From Neoarius graeffei (taxonomy: Eukaryota > Chordata > Actinopteri > Siluriformes > Ariidae), in NCBI RefSeq assembly GCF_027579695.1, contig NC_083587.1, forward strand, positions 2,560,501-2,624,500: a stretch of DNA of 64,000 nucleotides, written 5' to 3'. Below, piece by piece: positions 4,640-46,021 of this stretch. The notes under the pieces were generated by a model. That model made no database searches. It was not told where the DNA came from and worked only from the letters and a program-made list of their open reading frames with translations. How positions within the stretch are numbered: the stretch's first letter is position 1; the number at the start of each line of letters is the position of its first letter. The translations under genes and the position numbers were made by a program.

Positions 4640-5590
4640 TTTGTACCATACCATAGTACTGGTAAATTCGTTGTGCAGGCAGGAATTCAGCGATCCCAAT
4701 ACAAAATAACAGCTACGTAAAATACATTGTAACAGACAAGACAACACACACATCCTAACATATACAATCCTTAAAAGTGTGATCTTTAAAAAGTGCTTCA
4801 TCATCAATTGTTCAGTATGAACAAAATTATTCACCTCTGGGCCTTACTGTTCAGCAATACAATTGCTGTTGGTACAAAGCTCTTTCTGTACCGTTTTGTC
4901 CTTCCCTTAGGGACCCCAAAACGACGACCAGAGCGAAGGAGTTGGAACTCACCATGCAAAGGGTGTAAGCCATCTTTAAGAATACAGGTAGCTTTACATT
5001 GTAACTATGTCATAAAGAGAAGACATAGTGGGTTGAGGCTTCCCAATTAGCCACCCAGCCCATTTATTTGGTTCAGGGAGTTTTTGTCCTGTAGTGACAG
5101 ATTACCAAACCAAGACACGAAGGCAAAAGATAACAATGACTCAGTAAAAGCACGATAAAAAAGGGTCAGCATAGTTCTATCAATGTTAAAACGGAACAAT
5201 TTCCGAAGATAAAACAACCGCTGATGTCCTCTCTTGCATACTGCTTCGCAGTTCTTGTTAAAAGTCAATTTATCATCAACGACAATCCCAAGATACTTGT
5301 AACTATCCACGTGTTCAACAGATTGGCCCTTGATGACTGGGATCATGGTTTGGAGCCTGATTTCTAAAATCAATAATCATGTCCTTTGTTTTGGATGTAT
5401 TAAGCACCAAGAAAGAAAGATCACACCACCTAATAAAATCTTCCAAGACTGGACCATGGCTGTATTCATTATTGTGTAACAAACTTACAATGATGGTATC
5501 GTCTGCAAATTTTAAAATGTGCCCGTTTTCATAGACACTCTTACACATATCTGTATAAAGGATAAAAAGTAAGGGAGAGAGAACACATCC
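4640..5590 (-). mobile_element. CR1/Rex1-like LINE, 5'-truncated 3' part of ORF2
   Basis: Minus-strand reading starts at GCVLSPLLF (RT motif B'), passes the LKFADDT catalytic box (about 5520), SYKYLG (about 5300) and ends in the C-terminal VPKGRTKRYRKSF block (about 4910) and a stop. The frame is broken at least once, near 5350 where two overlapping frames meet. The 3' UTR probably runs to about 4640, next to the gypsy fragment. Only about 950 bp remain, the usual 5' truncation of LINE copies. Confidence 0.78.
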
Positions 5591-6852
5591 CTGAATGAAT
5601 AAGTTTAACTAGACAATTCCCCTGTGGGAAATCGTGAGTGATGCAGTGGGTGTAGCAGTCGCTATTGCAGGAGTTGTACTGTACTGTGTGAATATGTGAC
5701 TTGCTATGATGCTACGATGCTATGATCATGTGTGTGTTTGAGAGAGAGAGCAGCCCCTCCCCCATCTGCTACCTAACTGGAGCTCATTGCCTTGGTGACG
5801 GTGCTCAGGTGCAGAGCAGAGACATAAGATTACAGGCAAAGAGAGCTTTTTCTCAGATTTCCTTCTCCTCGAACAATGGCGATTTACACGAAAATGAAAG
5901 GAGGTATTCACAAAATTCTTTCACATTGAACGCTACAAGGCTCTCATGAACACATTGATGTAATTTTTTTGTCCCTAGTGTAAAAAACGTGGACAACAGA
6001 GCGAGTTGAAAACAACTGACATTTCTGATTTTGTAGTAAAAGCGCTGTTGGGATTATAATGGGAGTCAATGGAGCAGTTGGGCTGTGAACCTGTCACTTT
6101 GAGGCTTCTTGTGCGAAAACTGTAAATCCTATCGTTTAGGTAGGCACATCGTGTGAATCAACACAAGTGTGACTCCAACTTTTGAGAAAATTATATGTGT
6201 AGAGTGCAGAGCATTTTTTAAGGATTTTCCACTAGGAGACCAACCGGTTTGGGCAATACAATCACAGGCCCCAGAGTCCATGTGGCTGCACTGCTGCGGC
6301 ATATTCTGTGATGCAAAATGATTCACCAATCACCATACAGACAAACACACTACAGTGACTACACAGCTATCAAGAGCAATTACCAAGCACAAATGTTACA
6401 GGGGCAAAGGCAGGTTTTTAATTTGGGCACCATGGCGAGCCTAAAAATGTTTTTTTTTTTACTATTTTCGCGTGTAGCATGCCGGAAATTTTTGACGCAT
6501 CATTTTTAGTAATTTTTTTAACCAATTATAAATATATCGAGCAATAAAAATAATATAAATTACATAATCATGTGCAAGTATAAAGTAGTGCTGTATCTAA
6601 AAAGTCAAAAGTTTTCTCCAACAATCTGAATAAATAAAAAAAAGAGAAAAATATTTTGTAAGCCTAATTATGATCACAGCATCTATTTGGGCGCACATCT
6701 ATTTCAATTCAACTTCCAATATAATTTGGTATAAATTAATTTGGGCATAAATGGGATAAAAATAATTTTCACTTAAGTTTAAAAATAAGCTGGTACAAAG
6801 CAGATTACATAAAAGTCTCACATAAAATATGTAATAAAAATCCATAGCGTAC
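5591..6852. other. No gene recognised; AT-rich and dispersed-repeat-like sequence
   Basis: A short GA array lies near 5740. The stretch 5990-6200 has the look of a dispersed fish repeat (short GTTTAGGTAG and AATCAACACAA blocks) but I cannot name it. From 6420 the sequence becomes AT-rich and contains the motif ATTTGGGC at about 6421, 6685 and 6739. No convincing coding frame or RNA gene was found. Confidence 0.5.
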
Positions 6853-9411
6853 CTGGCAACTGTAAGGCAGCTGTTGCAGACGACAAGTCAATGACCTCGA
6901 CCTTGTCAACAATACCGTCTGATGTCTTCTGACTGTTCTGTCGTGTAATAAACCTCCCCATTCCCCCGCCTGTAGACTTGTTTGTTTGTTTGTTTACATT
7001 TATTGCCATTTAAGCATCTATGGCTATTTCATGGCCAATACAGGTAATAAATATCACATAAAATTAAAACCAATAATGAAATAAATAAATAAATAAATAC
7101 ATCAAATACATTTGTACACATCAATGCACTTCAAAAAGTTTAAAACCTTTAAAGGTGAAACCTTATTAAAAATATCTAGCATTGTGCTTTCTTTAAAAAA
7201 CTTCTGCCTTTGTATTCTAAGAGCAGGGCAAGACAAAATGTGCTTAATTGATAAGAGATCACCACAAAGATCGCAAAGTGGAGGTTCACCTCCAGTTAAC
7301 AGAAAGCCATGTGTTAGTCTAGAGTGTCCAATTCTACCCCTTGTGTAGACAACTTGGTCATGTCTACATGAAAAAGATTGAATAGTCACTTGTTTCACAT
7401 TAGTGCATATTTCTTTCAGCTTGTTGCCAACACAGTTAGTCCAATCAGCTTGCCATTTGTCACTTATGTAGGAAGAAAGAACAGGTCTGATATCAGAGAC
7501 AGGGATTTGGCATTCAGAAATCTCTTCATTCAGGGCTCCTTTAGCAGCATTATCTGCTTTTTCATTACCAGTCAAACCCACATGGCCAGGGACCCAACAA
7601 AAAATAATGTCCATATTGATTTTAGTTAGGTATTCCACTTTTTCAAGTATGTTGACAATAAGAGGGTGGTCAGTCTTTAAGAACTCCAATGCCTGTAGGC
7701 ATGATCTAGAATCTGTGCAAATCAAGGCTTTTTGCAGTTTGGACTCTTCAATGTATTCAAGACTTAAGAGCAAGGCTTGGGCTTCGGCTGTAAAAATTGA
7801 GCACAGATTTGGGATGCGTATTCCACACTGATTAGAGGCGACTACCATTGCTGAGGACACACAGGTATCAGTTTTTGAGCCATCAGTATAGATCAGAGTG
7901 TGCAAGGGGAAGCACTGTCTTACATCAAGGAAGCAACTCTGGTACTCGTTTGGGTGTGTGTTAGATTTCTTTCTGTGGCTCAGGTCCTGCACAATTATAG
8001 GTTTTCTCAAGGTCCAAGGGGGAATGGAACAAAGGGAAGAGGATGTTAGTCCATCCAAATCAACATTCAGATCCTGAAGGAAAGGTTTAATTCTTAATCC
8101 GAAAGGTCTGATAGACCGCGGTCTGGCTTCATAAAAGTCCAAATACTGTGGCTGAAAGACAGTGGGGTATGCCGGGTTATCTCTGTTCCCTTTGATTTTG
8201 ACTGCATATTGAAGTGCAAGTTTCAAGCGTCGCAATTTAAGGGATGGTTCTCTTGCTTCTACATAAAGACTCTGCACTGGAGAGGTTCTAAAGGCCCCTA
8301 GGACCAGTCTTAAACCTTGGTGGTGAACAGTATCCAGCATCATAATGTAAGATTGTCTTGCTGATCCATAGACAATACTGCCATAATCCAAACGGGATCT
8401 CACAAGTGCTCTATACAGGCGTAGCAGTATAGTCCACTCTGCCCCCCACTTTGTCTTTGCCAGTACCTTTAAAATGTCCAAAGATTTAAAACATCTCTTT
8501 TTAAGAGTCTTTATATGTGGAATAAAGGATAGTTTATTGTCAAGTATCAGACCAAGGAATTTAACCTCTTTCACAACTTGGATTGTGGCACCTTCCATAT
8601 ACAGCAATGGGTCATGATGTAAAGCTCGAAGTTGGCAAAAATGAGTGCAAACAGTCTTGGACTTAGAGAATTTGAAGCCATTTTCAATGGACCAATTGCT
8701 GATTTTATTTATGCACAGCTGGAGTTGCCTTTCGATTATACTCATGTATTTTCCTCTATAGCAAATACAGAGGTCATCAACATACAGGCTGCAAAAAAGA
8801 TTTGGGTTGATTTCCTTCACAATACTATTGATTTTAATACTGAATAGAGTGACTGAAAGGATGCTTCCCTGGGGAACTCCTTGTTCTTGCAAGTGTGGTG
8901 CTGAGAAAGTTGTACCCAATTGAACTTGAAAAAATCTATTAGACAAAAAATTTGAGATAAAAATGGGCAGACGACCTCTGAACCCCATGTAATACAAGTC
9001 CCTTAAAATGCCATATTTCCAAGTAGTATCGTATGCCTTTTCAAGGTCAAAAAACACTGCTATAACATGTTCCTTTTTGACAAATCCATCCCGTATATAG
9101 GCCTCCAATCTAATAAGATGGTCCATGGTGCTCTTTCCTTGCCTGAAGCCACATTGAAATGCACTCAAATGTCGTTCTGACTCGATCATCCACACAAGTC
9201 TTTTATTCACCATTCTTTCCATAGTTTTGCATAGGCAGCTGGTTAATGCAATAGGACGGTAATTGGTGGGATCAGTATGATCTTTGCCGGGTTTTGGAAT
9301 GGGAATCACGCCTGTAGACTTAATAAAGCCATCGATTGTGCATTTTCCATGAATATATGAACTGCTGTTCTGTGATTTACCAGTTGTCTTAGGTCTACCA
9401 CGACCCGGCAT
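6853..9411 (-). CDS. Putative host first coding exon with AT-hook, split by a LINE
   Basis: Transcribed right to left. The first ATG is at 9411 and begins MPGRGRPKTTGK, a good AT-hook core (RGRPK) for binding AT-rich DNA. The 34 codons to about 9310 meet a 13-bp target duplication (CGCCTGTAGACTT, 9309-9321 and 6967-6979). Beyond the LINE the same reading phase stays open (GGMGRFITRQNSQK to LQLPG) and ends at a consensus splice donor, CAG/GTACGC, at 6853/6852. Removing the LINE and one duplicate gives an uninterrupted frame of about 74 codons. That is what a host (or domesticated-transposon) 5' exon would look like; I do not recognise the protein and see no further exon in the window. Confidence 0.5.
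6980..9308 (-). mobile_element. I-type (Nimb/I-like) LINE with RNase H, 5'-truncated, recent
   Basis: The 2.33-kb insertion has 13-bp target duplications (6967-6979 and 9309-9321), an RT-RNase H-CCHC open frame without stops, a 3' UTR of about 120 bp containing an ATTT array (7082-7098), and a terminal (AAAC)n tail at 6980-6995. RNase H after RT points to the I superclade. The 5' truncation falls exactly at the start of the RT domain. Open frame and intact duplications mark it as one of the youngest insertions in the window. Confidence 0.85.
7102..9411 (-). CDS. Chimeric open frame: AT-hook exon fused in phase to LINE RT and RNase H
   Basis: One uninterrupted frame of 769 codons. Residues 1-34 are the AT-hook exon; the LINE begins at residue 35 (VIPIPKPGK). 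RT motifs: NYRPIAL (about 50), FFDLEKAYDT (about 121), GVPQGS (about 178) and the catalytic YVDD (about 210). RNase H: YTDGSKT (about 508), TAEAQAL (about 541), CTDSRSCLQAL (about 565) and WVPGHVGLTGNEKAD (about 606), so the D-E-D-D set is present. A CCHC knuckle (CDLCG...H...C) lies near 713-728. The apurinic endonuclease and ORF1 are missing, so it cannot retrotranspose by itself. Whether any transcript makes this protein is unknown. Confidence 0.7.
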   Translation of the reverse strand: MPGRGRPKTTGKSQNSSSYIHGKCTIDGFIKSTGVIPIPKPGKDHTDPTNYRPIALTSCLCKTMERMVNKRLVWMIESERHLSAFQCGFRQGKSTMDHLIRLEAYIRDGFVKKEHVIAVFFDLEKAYDTTWKYGILRDLYYMGFRGRLPIFISNFLSNRFFQVQLGTTFSAPHLQEQGVPQGSILSVTLFSIKINSIVKEINPNLFCSLYVDDLCICYRGKYMSIIERQLQLCINKISNWSIENGFKFSKSKTVCTHFCQLRALHHDPLLYMEGATIQVVKEVKFLGLILDNKLSFIPHIKTLKKRCFKSLDILKVLAKTKWGAEWTILLRLYRALVRSRLDYGSIVYGSARQSYIMMLDTVHHQGLRLVLGAFRTSPVQSLYVEAREPSLKLRRLKLALQYAVKIKGNRDNPAYPTVFQPQYLDFYEARPRSIRPFGLRIKPFLQDLNVDLDGLTSSSLCSIPPWTLRKPIIVQDLSHRKKSNTHPNEYQSCFLDVRQCFPLHTLIYTDGSKTDTCVSSAMVVASNQCGIRIPNLCSIFTAEAQALLLSLEYIEESKLQKALICTDSRSCLQALEFLKTDHPLIVNILEKVEYLTKINMDIIFCWVPGHVGLTGNEKADNAAKGALNEEISECQIPVSDIRPVLSSYISDKWQADWTNCVGNKLKEICTNVKQVTIQSFSCRHDQVVYTRGRIGHSRLTHGFLLTGGEPPLCDLCGDLLSIKHILSCPALRIQRQKFFKESTMLDIFNKVSPLKVLNFLKCIDVYKCI

Positions 9412-10530
9412 GACGAACACTTGTCAATCTATACTATCAACAGTATCACAAACCGACAGCCACATGTTATCATGAATCATTGAGAATTTCACAACATAAA
9501 CAAAGGAAGTATATTTTATAACATTCAGACGTCAGAGACTCAGACACTGTTTACGGTAATCGCTAGACGCATTTCATGTTCACTTCATGTTATGAAGCGA
9601 CTGAACAACAAATTGAAATATATATGCCAAAAAATGACATTTAACAATAATTTAAAAATATTTTGGGTTCTCCACCCTTATGAAACAGGATATTTTCTTC
9701 TAATTTGGGCCTTTTGACAAGCCCATAATTTGGGTGCCGTTATATGGTATGCAATTGGGGCTATATTTGCCCTTGTGTTATGTCAAAGACACTCAAAGTT
9801 ACACAGTAATGACACTGGATTCTGACATCAGCCATCTCAGTAACCAAATTTTAGTTTTGTTTTTCTTAACCAACATGATCGTGTGTATAACATAGATCTT
9901 CGTTTTCCTTGTTAAATGTATACTTACATGGTACTTGGTTAATTAATTGCAACTGATTGAACCAAATGATAAGACATAACTTGGTTTAAAATTTGGTTTC
10001 CCAGTGAAGCTGGTCTGGCATTGACTAGGAGACCAAATCTGGCTATGTTAAAAAATGCTCTGGTAGAGTGAAATTTGTGGCTGAAAACAGTTTTAATGAG
10101 AAATGTAAAGCATTTTTTTAAAGCTGTGTACACTCTAGCTCACCTGCATAGACACTCATTATAAAGTTTGAATTTCTCCAGAATTGATCATGGTGATTGA
10201 TCTGTGACTGATCAAAAAGTATAGAACCTAGCAAAAAAGTTGAATGCCAGATCCACATAGGAGAAGTTTGTCACACAATGGATTCCTAGCGCCACACAAT
10301 CAGACTCGCGATTTTGAAAAAAAAAACAAATTCCCAATCGAAACATTAATGTCTGCCGAGCACATATGACGGAGTGCGCAAGAGAGCGCATATGACAGAG
10401 TGCGTGAGACAAAGAGCATCCTGATTGGGTTACTCAGCAAAATAAGCCAATCAGCTTTCAGTGTGGGCGGGCTTCTCTTTTCTCGAGGACCGGAGTTTTC
10501 AGTTAAGTCAGTGCAGCCTACAGGATCGGC
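9412..10530. other. Upstream flank of the AT-hook exon; no gene recognised
   Basis: It holds AT-rich sequence with two further AATTTGGG motifs (about 9702 and 9727), matching those downstream of the exon. Possible promoter or 5' UTR of the exon lies in 9412-9560 but no TATA box or other clear signal was seen. From 10200 to 10530 there are GC-richer segments leading into the hAT-like exon. Confidence 0.4.
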
Positions 10531-10749
10531 ATGGCAGAGAGAGCGCGCGCCCCAAAAAACGAAAATACAAAACCCACTTCACCTCAGATTACACAAAAGA
10601 ATCTCCCTGTCTAATAATCTCCCTGTCTAATAATCTCCCTGTCTAATAAGGGTCAACAATAATGACACAGTTTCGCGCGATGTACTGTTTGCAGCAGTGA
10701 TTTCAGCATTGCCCATGGTGGCTTAAATGATTGTAAAAGACATGTTGAG
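10531..10749 (+). pseudogene. hAT-like transposase N-terminal exon, decayed
   Basis: The plus strand shows a basic stretch PKKRKYKTHFTSDYTKE (about 10548-10600), then a minisatellite, then CTVCSSDFSIAHGGLNDCKR at 10681-10740, a zinc-finger-like C-x2-C...H block known from N-termini of fish hAT-derived proteins. It ends at a splice donor, GAG/GTGAGG (10749). The upstream ATG (10531) is not in phase with the basic block, and the minisatellite (16-bp units containing stops) breaks the frame, so this is a relic. I could not find its terminal inverted repeats or later exons. Confidence 0.55.
10602..10649 (+). repeat. Minisatellite, three 16-bp units
   Basis: Three identical copies of TCTCCCTGTCTAATAA, expanded inside the hAT-like exon. 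Confidence 0.95.
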
Positions 10750-12192
10750 GTGAGGAGTGTCATTTCATGTGCATTATATTTAGGTCTACAACAGGCTGTC
10801 ATGAAAAGACCAAACTTATTGAAGATTTCCGTAAAGTAACAATGTATGAATATACATCATATATATCACATATATATCAAATACAAGTCATATATAAGTG
10901 TATATCTTTTATAAATGGGGTTAGCTTATCTAATGTAGCATGTTGGGGAGAATCATAGTATCATATTTATATTTCTGATAAAATTTTAGGTATGATACCG
11001 TGTATAACTCTCCTACTTGTTGCTCATTTCATAAGGGGACGGAATTGCTGGCATGTGCCGTGCGGGAGCGTCTGCCCAAATTTTTTAGGCCGAGATGAAC
11101 TTATAGTTTTTTATTTAAAAAAAAAAAATTCCAATATGTAATGCCCATTGTACATGCCTGTTCTTTAATTCAAAATCACCATCTTGATCTTCAGATTGAC
11201 CATATGGTATCTGTATTACATTACACATCCTGTCCAGATAAAACCTAGTTAGTACACACAACAGTTGAAAGGGAAGTGATGAGTGATGTTGAATGTTGCC
11301 TGCTTAATATGCAAGGCCTCCTGCTACCATGATAACATCAGAAGAAAGCTTAAGAGAATTATATGATAGAACTTTTTTCTGGTTTGCACTTCATTTTAAG
11401 AGTGACTTTTTCTAAGAACAGCCCAAAAAGAGCATATTCAGGAAACTCACCATCTCAGAATTTAATCACAATTTGTTATTATAGAGTCTAGGGATAGGAA
11501 TAGAAAATTTTACTAACCTTGACCAGATTAACCCCTTCCCGGCCGGATGGGCCACGCCCAAAATTTGGAGGTCCGACCACGGGTATGACATTCATGTTGG
11601 TTTAAATTGAATATTCTCAAAGATCCCATGATTCTGATTGCTTTTTCTGAGAGAGCATATGGGTGATCTATAAATTGCTTCCAAAAAAATTTGTGGGGGT
11701 GCGAAGCGTATCCACACTAGCGCCACCTAGGCAGGGGACGACTGACTCCTTTTTCAAGAAGACCCAAGTAAGTTGACTATATTACCCCTGCACCTACAGG
11801 CTTGCAAACGTGCCAATACTTTGAGTAGCCTACTGCTCAATCACTCAACCACTGCACTCATTTCAAGATCGAGGATCCATGGTGCACCAGTTTTATTTAA
11901 GGCAGTATTGATTGAAATGCTTAATGTTAGTAGCATACTAACAGGTGTTCTGATAAACTGTCCTACACGTCAATACGTCCTACAAAGCCCCACTGCGCAT
12001 GTGCGCGCATGCGCAGAACACAAAACGTCATTTCTTGGCATTTGAACAGATTTTTGTCCTACATCAGCTGTGCTATAAACGGTGCAGATTAACGGCGTGC
12101 ATTCAATCTTTACTACTTAATCTAACATAATGCTGATTTCTAACCATTGCGTGAGTCTTGCAATACATCTGAAATATCTCCCTGAAATATCC

Positions 12193-16316: not shown

Positions 16317-16844
16317 TTTAAAAAATAAACAAAAACCCCAAGAAAAAAAAAGTCTGTGAGAAATCAAGTTGAAATTTTGAGAAATAAAAAGTTGGAATGG
16401 CGAGGAAGTTGCAATTTAGAAGAAAAAAGAAAGCTATGGAAATGAACTTGAAGTGAAGATTTAAATACTTTAAACATACAACTAAACAGGTTAGCCAAAA
16501 TACAGCTCTCTCCTGAGTGGATAAATAGTGCACTACCGAGAGTGCACACGGCATTATTTCATACTGAACGGAGTTCCTAAAACAGTAAAGTGGAGATATA
16601 TTTGGGATTCGACCACACACCTTCAGTTTAACTTACCTCAGGGTTTTAAATCCTCAGAGCCAGACACAATAACGCGTTTTTATTCTTATAACGCGAAGGG
16701 CTAAAGCGGCTCAGACGAGCAGCATTTTTTCTTCTCCAGTGTTTTCTGGCGGTTGGAGAAGCAGCTACTGGACCCGTTACCGCCACCACCTGGACTGGAG
16801 TGGAGTTTCAGGGTGGAGGACGCCTATCCCAGCCCAACCCAAAA
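16107..16844. other. No gene recognised
   Basis: Contains an (AAT)n array at 16283-16316, then AT-rich text and GC-richer sequence (16690-16840) just before the inverted terminus at 16845. Confidence 0.4.
16283..16316 (+). repeat. (TAA)n microsatellite
   Basis: About eleven TAA units. Confidence 0.95.
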
Positions 16845-17189
16845 GCCAGTATCTCATTCGCTGGGCTTCTCAATTTCCTCGCATGGGTCGCAAAGTGTCG
16901 CTCCTTCATCGCTGATATTTTGAACATGTTCAAAAAATTAGTGCGACAAAATTTATCTCAAAATAGCCGCAAATGCATCGCTGGTGTCGCAAAGCTGTCA
17001 CGAACCCTTCTCAAGTCAGTTTCCGTGAGACAGGAAGTGCGGGGGGATGCGTCAGTGAGAATCGGTTGGTCAAGGAGGAGTGTGGCTGGTGGAACGGAGC
17101 CTGATAGGCAATTTGCCATATTACTACGGAAAATCAAAGCAGCTGCTGGGCGGGTACGGGGGTTGAGGTGTGATCCGGGAGGAAGCAGG

Positions 17190-18021
17190 ATGGCAGGCGA
17201 GGATGAGGGAGAAGAAATAGATGGTATGGAGCAAGGCATTGACCCGATACAGGCTAATGAAAGACGCACTGAAGCAGGTGAATTTCAGACGGTCAAACAC
17301 AACAAGAGAAGGAAGGGACAATCATCTGAATCTGACGAGAGCGGTAGGGAGGCAGGTAAACCAACTGAATTAAAAGTAATACTTCGATTTCAATCCCCGT
17401 GTACTGTCAATCCCATAAAGGCCAGTGAAGAAGTTCACAAACTGGTCGGAAATGTTCTTGCAGTCTTGCCTTTGAGAGATGGTAATCTAATGATTGTTTG
17501 TCGAGATAGAAACCAGAAACAAGGTTTAATGAAGTGTAAGATGTTCTTGGGGAAAGCGATTAAACCACAGGTGTGGGAAGAGAGAGGAAAAGTTTTGGGG
17601 TGATTTCAGGAGTATCGACCGACATGTCTGAAGAAGAGATTAAAACTAGTGTGAGGGGTGCATGAGTTATTAAAGTGAAACGTCTACCTATCACAAGAAA
17701 TGGAATTAAAAGTGCAAGTCTGTCTGTTATGCTGGTGATGGATGAGGATAAATTGCCAGACAGGATTAAAATTGGGTATGTCAGTTACAGCGTTAGACCA
17801 TATATCCCCCCCCCATGAGGTGTTACAAATGCCAAAGATTCAGACACATTGCTGCGGTATGCAGGGCTAAACCCCGCTGTGCCAAATGTGGGGGCGAACA
17901 TGATTATGGCAAATGCGCTGAAGGTACAAAAATAAAGTGCTGTAATTGTGGGGGTGAACATAGTGCGGCATATAAAGGGTGCGAGGAACACAAAAAAGCA
18001 GTGCAAATACAGAATGTGTGA
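17190..18021 (+). pseudogene. LINE ORF1 protein with CCHC zinc knuckles, frameshifted
   Basis: An ATG at 17190 opens an acidic N-terminus followed by a domain with PTELKVILRF and VLPLRDGNLMIVC (about residues 60-120), the usual pre-knuckle region of I-type ORF1. The frame closes at 17603. About 200 bp on, another frame (17815-18021) gives three knuckles: CYKCQRFRHIAAVC, CAKCGGEHDYGKC and CNCGGEHSAAYKGC. The segments belong to one ancestral ORF1, broken by at least one frameshift. It would bind the element's RNA. Confidence 0.75.
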
Positions 18022-18371
18022 GCGAAGGAGAAATTGTCTTACACTGAAGCTATTAAGAAAGTGAATAGCAAAGCAAAGCCCATCGCCCGAGTACTTTCTG
18101 CCTCCCAGCCTCTACCGCAAACATTTGTTCAAACTCCAAGACACAATGTCAACGACAACACCCTCATTGTAGACAAACGGAAATTTGTTGCATTTGTGGT
18201 GGAATGTATTAATTGTTCAGCAACAGTAGAAAGTAGGACACAAAAAACCTATATCATCATACGAGCAGCTAAGAAGTATCTTGGAATGGAAGATCTATCC
18301 TTTGAAGCAATTAATGAAATACTAACAGCAAAGGTAAATGAAAGTCAGCAGTCATGTGGTGGCGGATTGTG

Positions 18372-19022
18372 ATGGTACTGTCCATACTGCAGTGGAACGC
18401 CAGAAGCTTAGTAGCAAATGACCAAGAATTTAAGTATTTTATTGAAAAGCAACATGATAAACCAAACATCATATGCATACAGGAAACCTGGTTGAAACCA
18501 TCACTGGACTTCAGAATATTTGGATACACAGCTATACAGAAGGATAGAGGTATAGGACCAGGAGGAGGAGTAGCTATGTTCATCCAACAGGGTCTTAGTC
18601 AAAAGCCTTTAAAATTAAATATAGAAGCAGAAGTTATTGGGACTGAAGTGTGGGCTGGGGATACAAAGTTTGAAGTGGTTAATTTTTACAATCCATGTCT
18701 AAAGATTACAAGAGAGCTACTTGAGAGAATCTGCGGGCAAGTAAGTAGCAAATTAATTTTTTGTGGGGATTTTAATGCTCACAACACACTATGGGGAAGT
18801 AATAGAACAGATGACAATGGGCGGGTAGTCGAAGAGTTTATGGATGATTGTAAGTTAGTGTGCATGAATGACGGAAGGGGGACAAGATATGATGTATTGC
18901 GTGGGGTGAACTCAGCCATAGATCTCACTATAGTATCAGAACAGGTAGTAGGAACCACTCAGTGGGAAGTGCTTAAAAACTCCTTAGGAAGTGATCACTT
19001 CCCTATTGTTAGGTTTATATAA
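18372..19022 (+). CDS. LINE apurinic-type endonuclease domain, no RT behind it
   Basis: From the ATG at 18372 the frame runs 216 codons. Endonuclease/exonuclease/phosphatase motifs: LQWNARSL, ICIQETWL (catalytic E), GGGVAMFI, FCGDFNAHNTLWGS (catalytic D and N) and SLGSDHFPIV (catalytic D/H). It then stops at once, where an intact I-type element would run into RT. The 380 bp behind it look like AT-rich UTR. The I-type LINE at 6980-9308 keeps only RT onward, so the two are complementary, but I cannot say they are one family. Confidence 0.78.
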   Translation: MVLSILQWNARSLVANDQEFKYFIEKQHDKPNIICIQETWLKPSLDFRIFGYTAIQKDRGIGPGGGVAMFIQQGLSQKPLKLNIEAEVIGTEVWAGDTKFEVVNFYNPCLKITRELLERICGQVSSKLIFCGDFNAHNTLWGSNRTDDNGRVVEEFMDDCKLVCMNDGRGTRYDVLRGVNSAIDLTIVSEQVVGTTQWEVLKNSLGSDHFPIVRFI

Positions 19023-23725: not shown

Positions 23726-24966
23726 CCCTTGCAAGTCATACACCTGATGGACTCCAACGCCTGATGGACAGGTTCTCAAATGCCTGTAAAGAGTTTGCCT
23801 TAACAATCAGCATAAAGAAGACTGAGGTGATGGCCCAAGATGCTCCAAGCCCTCTGGTAGTATCAATCAACAGCTCTTTGCTTGCTGTGACTGATCGATT
23901 CACATACCTGGGATCCACTGTCACAAACAACTTGTCTCTGGATGCTGAAATAAACACAAGAATTGGCAAAGCAGCCTCCGTTATGAGCAAACTCAACAAA
24001 AGAGTTTGGGGAAACAAAAAGCTGACAATAAACACCAAGCTAAAGGTGTACCAGGCCTGTGTGCTAAGAACTCTCCTCTATGGCAGTGAAACATGGATGA
24101 CATATGCCAAACAAGAAGCAAAGCTCAATGCCTTTCACATGCGGTGTCTTCGCAGGATCCTAGGAATTAAATGGAAGGACAAGGTAACAAAAACTGATGT
24201 TCTTGAGAGGTCCAGTTCCAGGACCTTATTTGCAACGATCAGTGAGCGCCGCCTGAGATGGCTTGGACATGTTCGCCATATGGGGAAAGGACGTATTCCG
24301 AAAGATCTCCTATATGGCCAGCTTGAATGCAGTTCACGTCCAACTGGTCGCCCGCACCTGAGGTACAGAGATGTGTGCAAGAGAGATCTTAAGTCGGCTA
24401 ACATCAACATAAACTCATGGGAGGAAGCAGCGATTGACCGGTCAGCATGGAGACAAATTATCAAAGCAGGGGTGAAGGAAGCTGAAGCTACCAGATCCCA
24501 ACTCAGAGACCAGCGGTGACAGAAGGCACCTTCTGCCAACACCACCACATTCAGTTGTGCAGGATGTGGCAGAGACTGCCACTCTAGAATTGGTTTGTTC
24601 AGCCACCAAAGAAGATGCCGACCATGACCGAAACCCATCGTCTCTTTAAGACGGACGGAGGCCAATTGGCTAACCCAAGGCAGGACAGTCCTAATCATGA
24701 AGGACCCCCAGAAGGGACCCATCCCATCCAACTACCGGCCAATTACCTGTCTCTGCACAACATGGAAGGCCCGGTCAGGCATCATTGTGGCAAAAATGAG
24801 TAAGCATGTGGCTCAATACATGAGCAAGGCACAGAAAGGAATTGGCAGTAACACCAGAGGAGCCAAGCACCAGCTACTGGTCAATAGAACAGTCACCTGA
24901 GACTGTAAGAAGAGACAGACCAACCTGTGCACTGCCTGGATTGACTACAAGAAAGCCTACGACTCA

Positions 24967-26673
24967 ATGCCACACACATGGATACTGGAATGTCTGGAAC
25001 TGTATAAGATCAACAGGAACCTAAGGCCCTTCATCCAGAACTCAATGGAAATGTGGAAGACAACCCTAGAGGCCAACTCAAAACCCATTGCCCAAGTCAA
25101 CATCAAGTGCGGCATATACCAAGGAGATGCGCTATCACCACTGCTGTTCTGCATAGGCCTGAACCCCCTCAGTCGGATCATCACGAAGAGTGGCTACGGG
25201 TACCGATTCCGTAGTGGGGCAACAATCAGCCACCTGCTCTACATGGATGACATCAAGCTGTATGCCAGGAACGAGCGAGAAATAGACTCACTGATCCACA
25301 CCACCCGGATCTACAGTGATGACAAAGGGATGTCATTCGGATTGGACAAGTGTGGATGGATGGTCTCAAAGAGAGGCAAGATGATCCGGACTGAGGGGAT
25401 TGACCTACCAGAGGGCAACATAGGTGATATCCAAGACAGCTACAAGTACCTTGGCATCCCACAGGCTAATGGAAACCATGAAGAGGCCACAAGGAAGTCA
25501 ACCACAGCCAAATACCTCCAGAGAGTAAGGCAGGTCCTGAAAAGTCAGCTGAATGGTAAGAACAAGGTCCAAGCCATCAACATGTATGCACTACCAGTCA
25601 TCAGATACCCCGCTGGTATCATAAACTGGCCAAAGGAGGAGATAGAAGCCACAGATATCAAGACTAGAAAGCTCCTCACCATGCATGGAGGGTTCCACCC
25701 CAAGTCCAGCACCCTGAGACTATACACTAAGCGGAAAGAGGGAGGCCGAGGGCTAGTGAGCATCAAGACCACGGTCCAGGATGAAACATCGAAAATCCGA
25801 GAATACATCAGAAAGATGGCCCCAAAGGATGAACTGCTAAGTGAATGTCTCAGGCAGCAGAACCCTGATGAGAGTGCAGAGGAGGAGGAGGAACAGATAA
25901 CCTGGAGGGACAAACCCCTACATGGCATGTACCACCGTCAGATAGAGGAAGTGGCTGATATCAAGAAATCCTACCAGTGGCTGGATAATGCAGGACTGAC
26001 AGACAGCACAGAGGCACTAATCATGGCAGCACAAGAACAGGCCATAAGCACAAGAGCCATAGAGGCCAGGATCTACCAGAGTAGATCAGACCCAAGATGC
26101 AGACTGTCCAAAGAAGCCCCTGAAACAGTCCAGCACATAGTAGCAGGGTGTAAGATGCTAGCTGGATCAGCGTACATGGAGAGGCACAACCAAGTGGCTG
26201 GGATAGTATACAGGAACATCTGCAACCAGTATGGAATAGAAGTACCCAAGTCCCAATGGGCCATACCACAGAAGGTGGCTGAGAACAACAGGGCCAAGGT
26301 TCTGTGGGACTTCAGCTTCCAGACTGACAAACAGATCCTGGCTAACCAACCGGACATAGTGGTGGTGGACAAAGAACAGAAGAGGGTGGTGGTGATAGAT
26401 GTGGCGATCCCAGCTGACGCCAACATCAGGAAGAAGGAACATGAGAAACTTGAGAAGTATCAAGGGTTGAAAGAGCAGCTGGAACGGATGTGGAAGGTCA
26501 AGGGTTGCGTGGTCCCCGTGTTAGTGGGGGCACTTGGGGCAGTAACCCCCAAACTGGGAGAGTGGCTCCAGCAAATCCCAGGAACAACATCTGAAGCCTC
26601 AGTCCAGAAGAGCGCAGTACTAGGAACATCGAAGATACTGCGCAGAACCCTCAAACTCCCAGGCCTCTGGTAG
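24967..26673 (+). CDS. RT plus restriction-like endonuclease ORF (568 codons)
   Basis: Open from 24967 to the stop at 26673. RT: DYKKAYDSMP just upstream, KCGIYQGDALSPLLF (about residue 49), HLLYMDDIKLYA (about 90), DSYKYLGIPQANGNHEEA (about 160). A thumb and linker follow, then a CCHC-like knuckle (CRLSKEAPETVQHIVAGC, about 376) in which the second Cys is Ser, then the nuclease QPDIVVVDKEQKRVVVIDVAIP (about 453), with the PD-x(14)-D pattern of restriction-like nucleases, and EKLEKYQGL behind it. The C-terminus is LRRTLKLPGLW. It would nick the target and prime reverse transcription. It is intact as a frame but lacks the RT fingers, which lie before the stop near 24898. Confidence 0.8.
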   Translation: MPHTWILECLELYKINRNLRPFIQNSMEMWKTTLEANSKPIAQVNIKCGIYQGDALSPLLFCIGLNPLSRIITKSGYGYRFRSGATISHLLYMDDIKLYARNEREIDSLIHTTRIYSDDKGMSFGLDKCGWMVSKRGKMIRTEGIDLPEGNIGDIQDSYKYLGIPQANGNHEEATRKSTTAKYLQRVRQVLKSQLNGKNKVQAINMYALPVIRYPAGIINWPKEEIEATDIKTRKLLTMHGGFHPKSSTLRLYTKRKEGGRGLVSIKTTVQDETSKIREYIRKMAPKDELLSECLRQQNPDESAEEEEEQITWRDKPLHGMYHRQIEEVADIKKSYQWLDNAGLTDSTEALIMAAQEQAISTRAIEARIYQSRSDPRCRLSKEAPETVQHIVAGCKMLAGSAYMERHNQVAGIVYRNICNQYGIEVPKSQWAIPQKVAENNRAKVLWDFSFQTDKQILANQPDIVVVDKEQKRVVVIDVAIPADANIRKKEHEKLEKYQGLKEQLERMWKVKGCVVPVLVGALGAVTPKLGEWLQQIPGTTSEASVQKSAVLGTSKILRRTLKLPGLW

Positions 26674-43669: not shown

Positions 43670-44290
43670 CAGGGGGGGTGGTATCCATGTCATCCTCAAG
43701 CTCGGGTCCTCTACCAGAGGCCTGGGAGTTTGAGGGTTCTGCGCAGTATCTTCGATGTTCCTAGGACTGCGCTCTTCTGGACTGAGGCTTCAGATGTTGT
43801 TCCTGGGATTTGCTGGAGCCACTCTCCCAGTTTGGGGGTTACTGCCCCAAGTGCCCCCACTACCACGGGGACCACGCAACCCTTGACCTTCCACATCCGT
43901 TCCAGCTGCTCTTTCAACCCTTGATACTTCTCAAGTTTCTCATGTTCCTTCTTCCTGATGTTGGCGTCAGCTGGGATCGCCACATCTATCACCACCATCC
44001 TCTTCTGCTCTTTGTCCACCACCACTATGTCCGGTTGGTTAGCCAGGATCTGTTTGTCAGTCTGGAAGCTGAAGTCCCACAGAACCTTGGCCCTGTTGTT
44101 CTCAGCCACCTTCTGTGGTATGGCCCATTGGGACTTGGGTACTTCTATTCCATACTGGTTGCAGATGTTCCTGTATACTATCCCAGCCACTTGGTTGTGC
44201 CTCTCCATGTACGCTGATCCAGCTAGCATCTTACACCCTGCTACTATGTGCTGGACTGTTTCAGGGGCTTCTTTGCACAGTCTGCATCTT

Positions 44291-44291
<1 letters not shown>
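43670..44291 (-). mobile_element. Rex6/Dong-like LINE 3' fragment, second copy
   Basis: Minus strand from 44291: CRLCKEAPETVQHIVAGCKM (both knuckle Cys kept), WDFSFQTDKQILANQPDIVVVDKEQKRMVVIDVAIP and the LKLPGLW end (stop at 43711), then GAGGATGACATGGATACC to about 43678. Almost identical to 26088-26705 and without the tandem duplication seen there. Confidence 0.92.

Positions 44292-44376
<85 letters not shown>
44292..44376 (+). repeat. (TA)n(GA)n compound microsatellite
   Basis: TA array 44292-44338 followed by GA array 44339-44376. The mirror image, (CT)n(TA)n, lies at 60174-60220 at the far end of the other arm. Confidence 0.95.
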
Positions 44377-44380
<4 letters not shown>

Positions 44381-46021
44381 ATTCCAAAGATACCATTTAT
44401 TGAAATAGCTGACATGAATTAGCGTACTAATACTGATCGTATATAGCAATGATAGCAGCCAAGGAATAGTTCAATATAACTGGTGATACAATATATACAA
44501 ATAAGAATCAGTCGTGTATATGATGATAACTAAGGCACTAGTGGTGATCAGAAGTAATAAGCTATATCCAAGTTTGCAGTGTAGGGGTGAGTGAATATTA
44601 AAAATGTGATAGGGAAACCATGTGTTTGTGGGTGGGTGTGGGTGTGAGAATGTGTGTATGTGTGTGGAATGCGAATGGAATGCAGCCGTGCCCAAAAGGT
44701 GGATGGTCAGCACAGAAAGGGCGTGCGAAATTGAACAAAGGAATCTGTAGTTCAAACTAGTCTTTGCTCGGCCTTAAACCAAAATTCTACTCAAATCCCA
44801 ATGTTGAGGAGTGAAGTACAATGGAGGGAGTTAAAAAGAGAGAGAGAGAATGCATGCACAAAATAACTAAATACATCTCGTAAATAAAGTAAATCAAACA
44901 ACACGTGGTCTAAGACTGACTTTCATGTAAATCAAAATGTGTAAATTTAAATTATAAATGAATTCAAATAAAGAACACTAGTAAGTAACTGCAAGTAAAA
45001 ACTAACACATTTTGCCCAGATGCTAGCCTCACTTGGGTGATCGCTCTTGTTAGCGATTGAAGTGTGCCTTCTCCGAAGATAGCGCGGGATGCAGATCCAG
45101 GATGAAGACGGTTTTGTTCCTTACAGCTCGTCAGCTGAAGATCCTCGGTGTCCCGTTGGCTGTCCAATAATCTAGAAGGAATCTTGTTTATAATTTGTCG
45201 ACATTGAAAAAGGGAAAAGGAATCCGGTCACCTTTTCTCTTTGAAACACTGCGTGGGCTGCAGTATCGAACCAGTTCAATTATTATTACAACTCTGTGAA
45301 GGTCAAATACATTGAACTTTGGCTAAAGTCTGGTATCAATAGCTGGTTCCTCGTTTTCTGTCCTTCTGTAGCGCCAATGCATGGCTTCTCTGTCACGTGT
45401 GGAATCCACCACCAGAGAGGAAATCCACCGCCAGAGACAGAATTTCAGTGCCGCCACTGGTTTAAAGCAGTCATGGCGTCACTGTATTTGGTATCTGGTA
45501 TCGTCTCTGTCCAATACCATTACAGGGATTCAGAAGAATGGGCAGAGATAGAACATGGGGTCGAGTACAGAGATTGGTGTGTTCAAACTGTACTGTGAAA
45601 GAGTTACTATGGTTATGGGCATGGTAGCCACCCCTAGATCAGATGTTGGAAGAACAGCTGGATGCACTGGCACCCATTTGGCCTGGTGTAGTGAAAACCC
45701 GGACCTTTACCCTTACCCTCTGTACAGGTTTGAGCCCATGGTGTTAAAAAAATAGCTGTAACGCTGAACACCGGCTGCTGTGGTCAGATTCAGAGTACAG
45801 CCTTTGTTAGAGTTAACAAAAAGCCAGGCCCAGGATCTTAGATGGGGTAAGAGAGAGCTAAGCTGAGTAAGCCAAGCGTGAATCCTGGAATCTTCTGCAC
45901 TGTCCTGAGACTTCTTGTCCCATCATGACACCAAAAGGACTCATGAAAGCAAGAGCTTATAGAATGAAGATTTCACTCAAGGTCATGTGACTTGCAACTC
46001 AAGTGACACAACAAAGACACA
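44377..46021. other. Outer part of the left arm; unassigned
   Basis: No coding frame with domains. On the other strand the text ends in TTCAATAAATGGTATCTTTGGAATAAA and a CT tail, so an unidentified retroposed element of about 1 kb with a poly(A)-like signal may be present. (GT)-rich stretch at 44625-44660. Its mirror is 58507-60173. Confidence 0.45.

Follow-up and report, generated by a model that had tools for sequence, protein, structure and literature searches.

Organization of the fused frame and of its LINE

The window, by which we mean the whole stretch of 64,000 nucleotides analysed here (C20:2560501-2624500 of the assembly), carries on its reverse strand a long open frame that crosses the junction between a DNA transposon and a LINE copy inserted into it. 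The features of the locus, with the evidence on which each was placed, are the following.

9776..9780 (-): 5-bp target-site duplication (TSD) of the transposon, TAACA, 5' copy; matches 6398-6394
6399..9775 (-): DNA transposon holding the 'AT-hook exon', TIRs CAAGGGCAAA... / ...TTTGCCCCTG; borders of dispersed copies and TIR/TSD scan
7102..9423 (-): fused open frame, 773 codons from stop to stop; ORF list
9310..9411 (-): 34 codons of the transposon open frame, with GRGRPK, where the fused frame starts; ORF and genome-wide repeated peptide
9309..9321 (-): TSD of the LINE, 5' copy, AAGTCTACAGGCG; exact 13-bp match
6980..9308 (-): 5'-truncated LINE copy of 2329 bp; bounded by the 13-bp duplications
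8545..9300 (-): reverse transcriptase (RT) core, RVT_1, lacking the RT-homologous stretch found ahead of it in full copies; residues 42-293
7534..7899 (-): RNase H domain; residues 509-630
6967..6979 (-): TSD of the LINE, 3' copy, AAGTCTACAGGCG; exact 13-bp match
6853..6966 (-): rest of the transposon frame that the LINE interrupts, reaching a candidate splice donor (CCAG/GTACGC); frame from the empty site, donor by eye
6394..6398 (-): TSD of the transposon, TAACA, 3' copy; TIR/TSD scan

Coordinates and phase were re-derived from the ORF and agreed with the initial annotation: the ATG at 9411 opens a frame of 769 codons, made up of 34 codons upstream of the LINE and 735 further codons. The order proposed for its domains (RT, RNase H and a C-terminal CCHC knuckle) was also recovered. 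Pfam identified RVT_1 (E=2.2e-36, residues 42-293, model positions 1-204 of 205) and RNase_H (E=2.5e-9, residues 509-630), and the knuckle CX2CX7HX3C was read directly from the sequence, as were the reported residues YVDD and D-E-D-D, which we take to be the catalytic motifs of RT and RNase H, respectively. The near-complete Pfam RT core and the catalytic residues count against the explanation preferred below. The AT-hook stood in part: the 34-codon segment contains GRGRPK, presumably the AT-hook core motif, but Pfam returned no AT-hook match at E<=1 in the fused frame or in the frame of another copy.

The claim that a LINE landed in phase inside an open frame was borne out by a 13-bp direct repeat, located by script, on both sides of the LINE and by the continuous frame of 773 codons. 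The features of a LINE were found, namely an RT domain, a TSD, 5' truncation, a 3' tail and longer copies elsewhere; AATAAA begins 25 bases before the 3' end, which consists of an AAAC-repeat tail. The LINE part begins at about residue 503 of an ORF2 of 1237 residues, and the Pfam scan of the fused frame found no endonuclease. No second copy of the LINE was seen within the window, since a DNA search with 5500-11000 against the whole window matched only itself and the four other matches of the fused protein (E<0.001) are all RT frames at just 23-34% identity.

Other retroelement frames are present in the window. An open frame of 590 codons at 24901-26673 (+) begins within an RT domain (the RVT_1 match starts at model position 62), and its C-terminal part recurs, by eye, at 43711-44418 (-). 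Another non-LTR element lies at 16692-19022 (+), where an endonuclease frame (Exo_endo_phos_2, E=1.9e-24) comes after a 303-codon frame that has no Pfam match. The protein search of the window gave no match of the fused RT protein between 19022 and 24724.

A search of the window's own assembly (2.34 Gb, 38 contigs) with the LINE returned 43 matches, one of them the window, from 40 scored among 286 candidates. In at least 16 copies at 97-99% identity the match begins with the very first base of the LINE part of the window; among those 16 listed, 15 run uninterrupted to the 3' end and one does so in two pieces, the second of which forms a separate row. At least 14 copies at 97-99% among the matches listed start further in and are 5'-truncated, and an older set of 11, also among the matches listed, stands at 77-85%. 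The 20 LINE regions fetched comprise the 16 long copies, 2 of the 14 truncated ones and 2 of the older set; 8 of the 20 had an ORF1 frame of 407 codons, and in 3 an ORF2 of 1237-1242 codons was open in a single frame. In the one full copy that was scanned (L030), ORF2 gave Exo_endo_phos_2 (E=2.7e-19), an endonuclease, together with RVT_1 and RNase_H. The LINE clade may be I/Nimb-like.

Alignment of the full ORF2 with the RTs of LINE-1 and R2 (8c8j, 8gh6) extends from about residue 433. Since the window copy starts only at about residue 503, some 70 RT-homologous residues that precede the Pfam core are missing, and the fused protein is, as far as its sequence indicates, unlikely to be an active polymerase. 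Weak matches of the fused protein to the R2 and HIV RNase H sequences were also obtained.

The DNA transposon and its exon-like frame

Without the LINE and one copy of its TSD, the transposon measures about 1035 bp (roughly 1.04 kb). Its borders are the inverted repeats CAAGGGCAAA and CAGGGGCAAA, with the inverted termini CARGGGCAAA. The termini are not among the 25 longest of 95 inverted-repeat pairs, and they were recognised by eye and from the borders of the copies. A genome search with 9900-9309 (592 bp) gave 780 first-look candidates, of which 40 were scored at 87-100% identity: 19, including the window, share flank outside the transposon, and in the remaining 21 the match opens within query bases 113-130, in 13 cases at base 126, which corresponds to position 9775 of the window. 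The search with 6979-6300 (767 candidates, 40 scored, 42 matches) placed the opposite border, as 12 dispersed copies among the matches listed stop within query bases 579-588, in 7 cases at base 581, which corresponds to position 6399.

The TIR/TSD scan covered 13 other loci (L012-L018, L039-L044). Exact 5-bp TSDs were found at three other transposon insertions, GAGAT in L041, ATTCA in L042 and TCATA in L044, and L039 showed GGAGT/GGAGC with one mismatch. Among the seven loci whose flank is that of the window, TAACA stands on either side of the transposon in L012, L014, L015 and L017, as it does in the window, and L018 carries this duplication with one mismatch; the scan gave no duplication in L013, whose 3' end is rearranged, and no transposon 3' end in L016, L040 and L043.

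The transposon and its flanks (9776-9900 and 6300-6398) recur together at 89-97% (L012-L018, L046-L052), mainly in clusters on C7, C17, C18 and C20. From these shared flanks the window seems to sit in a set of segmental duplications.

The segment that had been described as an AT-hook exon belongs to this dispersed transposon and not to an identified host gene, as indicated by the borders of the copies, the TIRs and TSDs and the 120 genome-wide matches of the exon peptide. Two of these matches are the halves of the peptide in the window itself, and some of the rest are fragments of a single place. The first of the two halves in the window lies in the 773-aa frame; none of the other matches falls in a frame longer than 145 aa, and this singularity of the window's frame counts against the preferred explanation. 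Pfam gave no match for the 89-aa frame of the one other transposon copy scanned, and the loci that were read showed no transposase.

The exon frame occurs in two forms that diverge after GRFI, TRQNSQK... and NKFYG... (window 6853-6966; L039, L040, L044). The TRQNSQK... form contains VEVIDLSS, which to us resembles a SUMO-interacting motif. In L040 a long frame resembling a LINE endonuclease was observed by eye soon after the exon frame, so that LINEs may have inserted into the transposon on more than one occasion.

Empty sites, reading phase and selection

The target without the LINE was found in all 20 other loci examined (L012-L018, L039-L044, L046-L052), with 0-2 mismatches; because L015 and L046 overlap, these represent 19 distinct places. 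The window's own locus, L011, is filled, and L001 and L045, which are also the window, were left out. The loci checked are part of hundreds of candidates, which may include other filled copies.

We asked how the junction compares with those of 14 other truncated copies, in which the open stretch upstream was measured in the ORF2 frame. The upstream opening of the window is 38 codons, while it is 47 and 69 codons in two of these copies, 32 in one and at most 17 in eleven; the window thus stands at the upper end of the range but inside it. As 2 of the 14 reach 38 codons or more, the length of the opening is not remarkable alone, and the rarity of an in-phase join was dropped as an argument. An in-frame ATG upstream was found among the 14 only in the 32-codon copy and in neither the 47- nor the 69-codon one. 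That the window has such an ATG where the two copies with longer openings have none counts against the preferred explanation.

Changes private to the window copy were counted in an alignment with 18 other copies (L019-L036), from which the two older copies were omitted and in which columns with at least 10 letters were used. The window copy carries 4 private substitutions in 2329 bp, 2 nonsynonymous (N) and 2 synonymous (S), and the other 18 copies pooled carry 56 N, 39 S, 25 changes outside codons and 1 stop. The LINE insertion is, by the measure of these sequences, very young. Assuming a transition/transversion rate ratio of 4, a stop would result from about 3.7% of neutral substitutions, which gives a chance of 0.86 that none arises in 4, a figure that does not include frameshifts. 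With a young LINE and just four private substitutions, an open frame is expected without selection. The ratio of 2N:2S gives no sign of selection in either direction, four changes being too few; for the same reason they cannot rule selection out, and this is counted against the preferred explanation.

The dN/dS comparison with other LINE copies that had been proposed was run and gave ratios of 0.16-0.64 in 18 of 18 pairs, which are misleading as a sign of constraint on the fusion. The low values probably reflect, for the most part, selection on the source LINEs before the insertion in the window. Pairwise dN/dS was therefore set aside as evidence of selection on the fusion, for which the informative changes are the private ones, four in number.

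Interpretation and relation to known elements

We consider, at a probability of about 0.93, that a young 5'-truncated LINE is nested in a dispersed small DNA transposon and that the phase was kept by chance; it is ordinary nested transposition. Full copies of the LINE carry an ORF1 frame and, after it, an ORF2 that encodes endonuclease, RT and RNase H. Target-primed reverse transcription would have placed a 5'-truncated copy within the short open frame of a single transposon copy, the join between the two would have kept phase by accident, and the insertion would be so recent that neither a stop nor a frameshift has arisen. The fused frame is probably without function. This explanation coincides with a caveat of the initial annotation, that phase may be kept by chance and the insertion be young, and it agrees with the four private changes, the copies at 97-99% and the 2 of 14 openings, as well as with the 13-bp TSD, the 5' truncation and repeat tail, the empty sites in other transposon copies and the TIRs with their 5-bp TSDs.

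The functional DNA-binding RT envisaged in the initial annotation found no support, as 2N:2S carries no signal of selection in either direction and the region before the RT core is absent. Such a fusion, in which a transposon promoter would drive an AT-hook N-terminus that tethers an endonuclease-free RT/RNase H to DNA, could draw on the open frame with its ATG, on an RT core that covers positions 1-204 of 205 of the Pfam model with its catalytic residues, and on the AATAAA 25 bases before the LINE end, but the insertion is very young, about 70 RT-homologous residues before the core are gone and in-phase opening is not rare (2/14). We regard it as very improbable, and we hold equally doubtful that the transposon's own promoter transcribes the fusion to give a DNA-tethered RT/RNase H, free of endonuclease, that would act at AT-rich sites or nicks. 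No more credit is due to a LINE that disrupted the exon of a real single-copy host gene. The uninterrupted frame does end at a splice donor that is plausible by eye, but the assembly contains 120 matches of the peptide and the dispersed copies are bounded by TIRs and flanked by 5-bp TSDs, and this candidate was rejected on copy number and on the TIR/TSD borders.

An alternative with somewhat more weight, though still unlikely, is that the short frame is a host exon that was captured and then spread by the DNA transposon, and not an exon of a transposase; it is compatible with the nested, in-phase LINE preferred here. The 89-aa frame without a Pfam match and the lack of a transposase in the loci read are consistent with capture, but the N-terminal exon of the transposase of an autonomous partner would look identical. 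Least probable of all is a chimeric join of LINE and transposon made by the assembly, for which nothing specific speaks and against which stand the exact 13-bp TSD and the matching empty sites.

The nested LINE illustrates how a young LINE can look like a domesticated fusion gene when it lies in another repeat, and how pairwise dN/dS against other LINE copies can falsely signal constraint. The locus also marks a LINE family that has been active recently in this genome and a DNA transposon that carries an AT-hook-like frame. The fusion, if expressed, would be possible raw material for a new gene; nothing found here supports this.

TIRs that begin with CARGGG resemble, we believe, the termini of hAT elements, and our guess is that the transposon may be a hAT. 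PMC12730594 names hAT5, a hAT group with 5-bp duplications. The window's element likewise has 5-bp TSDs and TIRs, as a hAT-like non-autonomous transposon of that group would, and departs from that group in that no transposase was found in the loci read, which makes the superfamily tentative, and in that it has an AT-hook-like open frame.

With LINE-1 ORF2p (8sxt, 8c8j) the RT is alignable, 8sxt giving E=5.3e-19 with the full ORF2 and 2.4e-8 with the fused frame. Compared with LINE-1 ORF2p, the fused frame has neither the endonuclease nor the region before the RT core, while RNase H is present. The closest likeness is to 5'-truncated non-LTR LINEs of the EN-RT-RNase H type: the window copy shares with them the TSD, the 5' truncation, the repeat tail and the near-identical relatives, and EN, RT and RNase H were found together in a full copy of its family. 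It differs from an ordinary truncated LINE insertion in being in phase with a foreign open frame.
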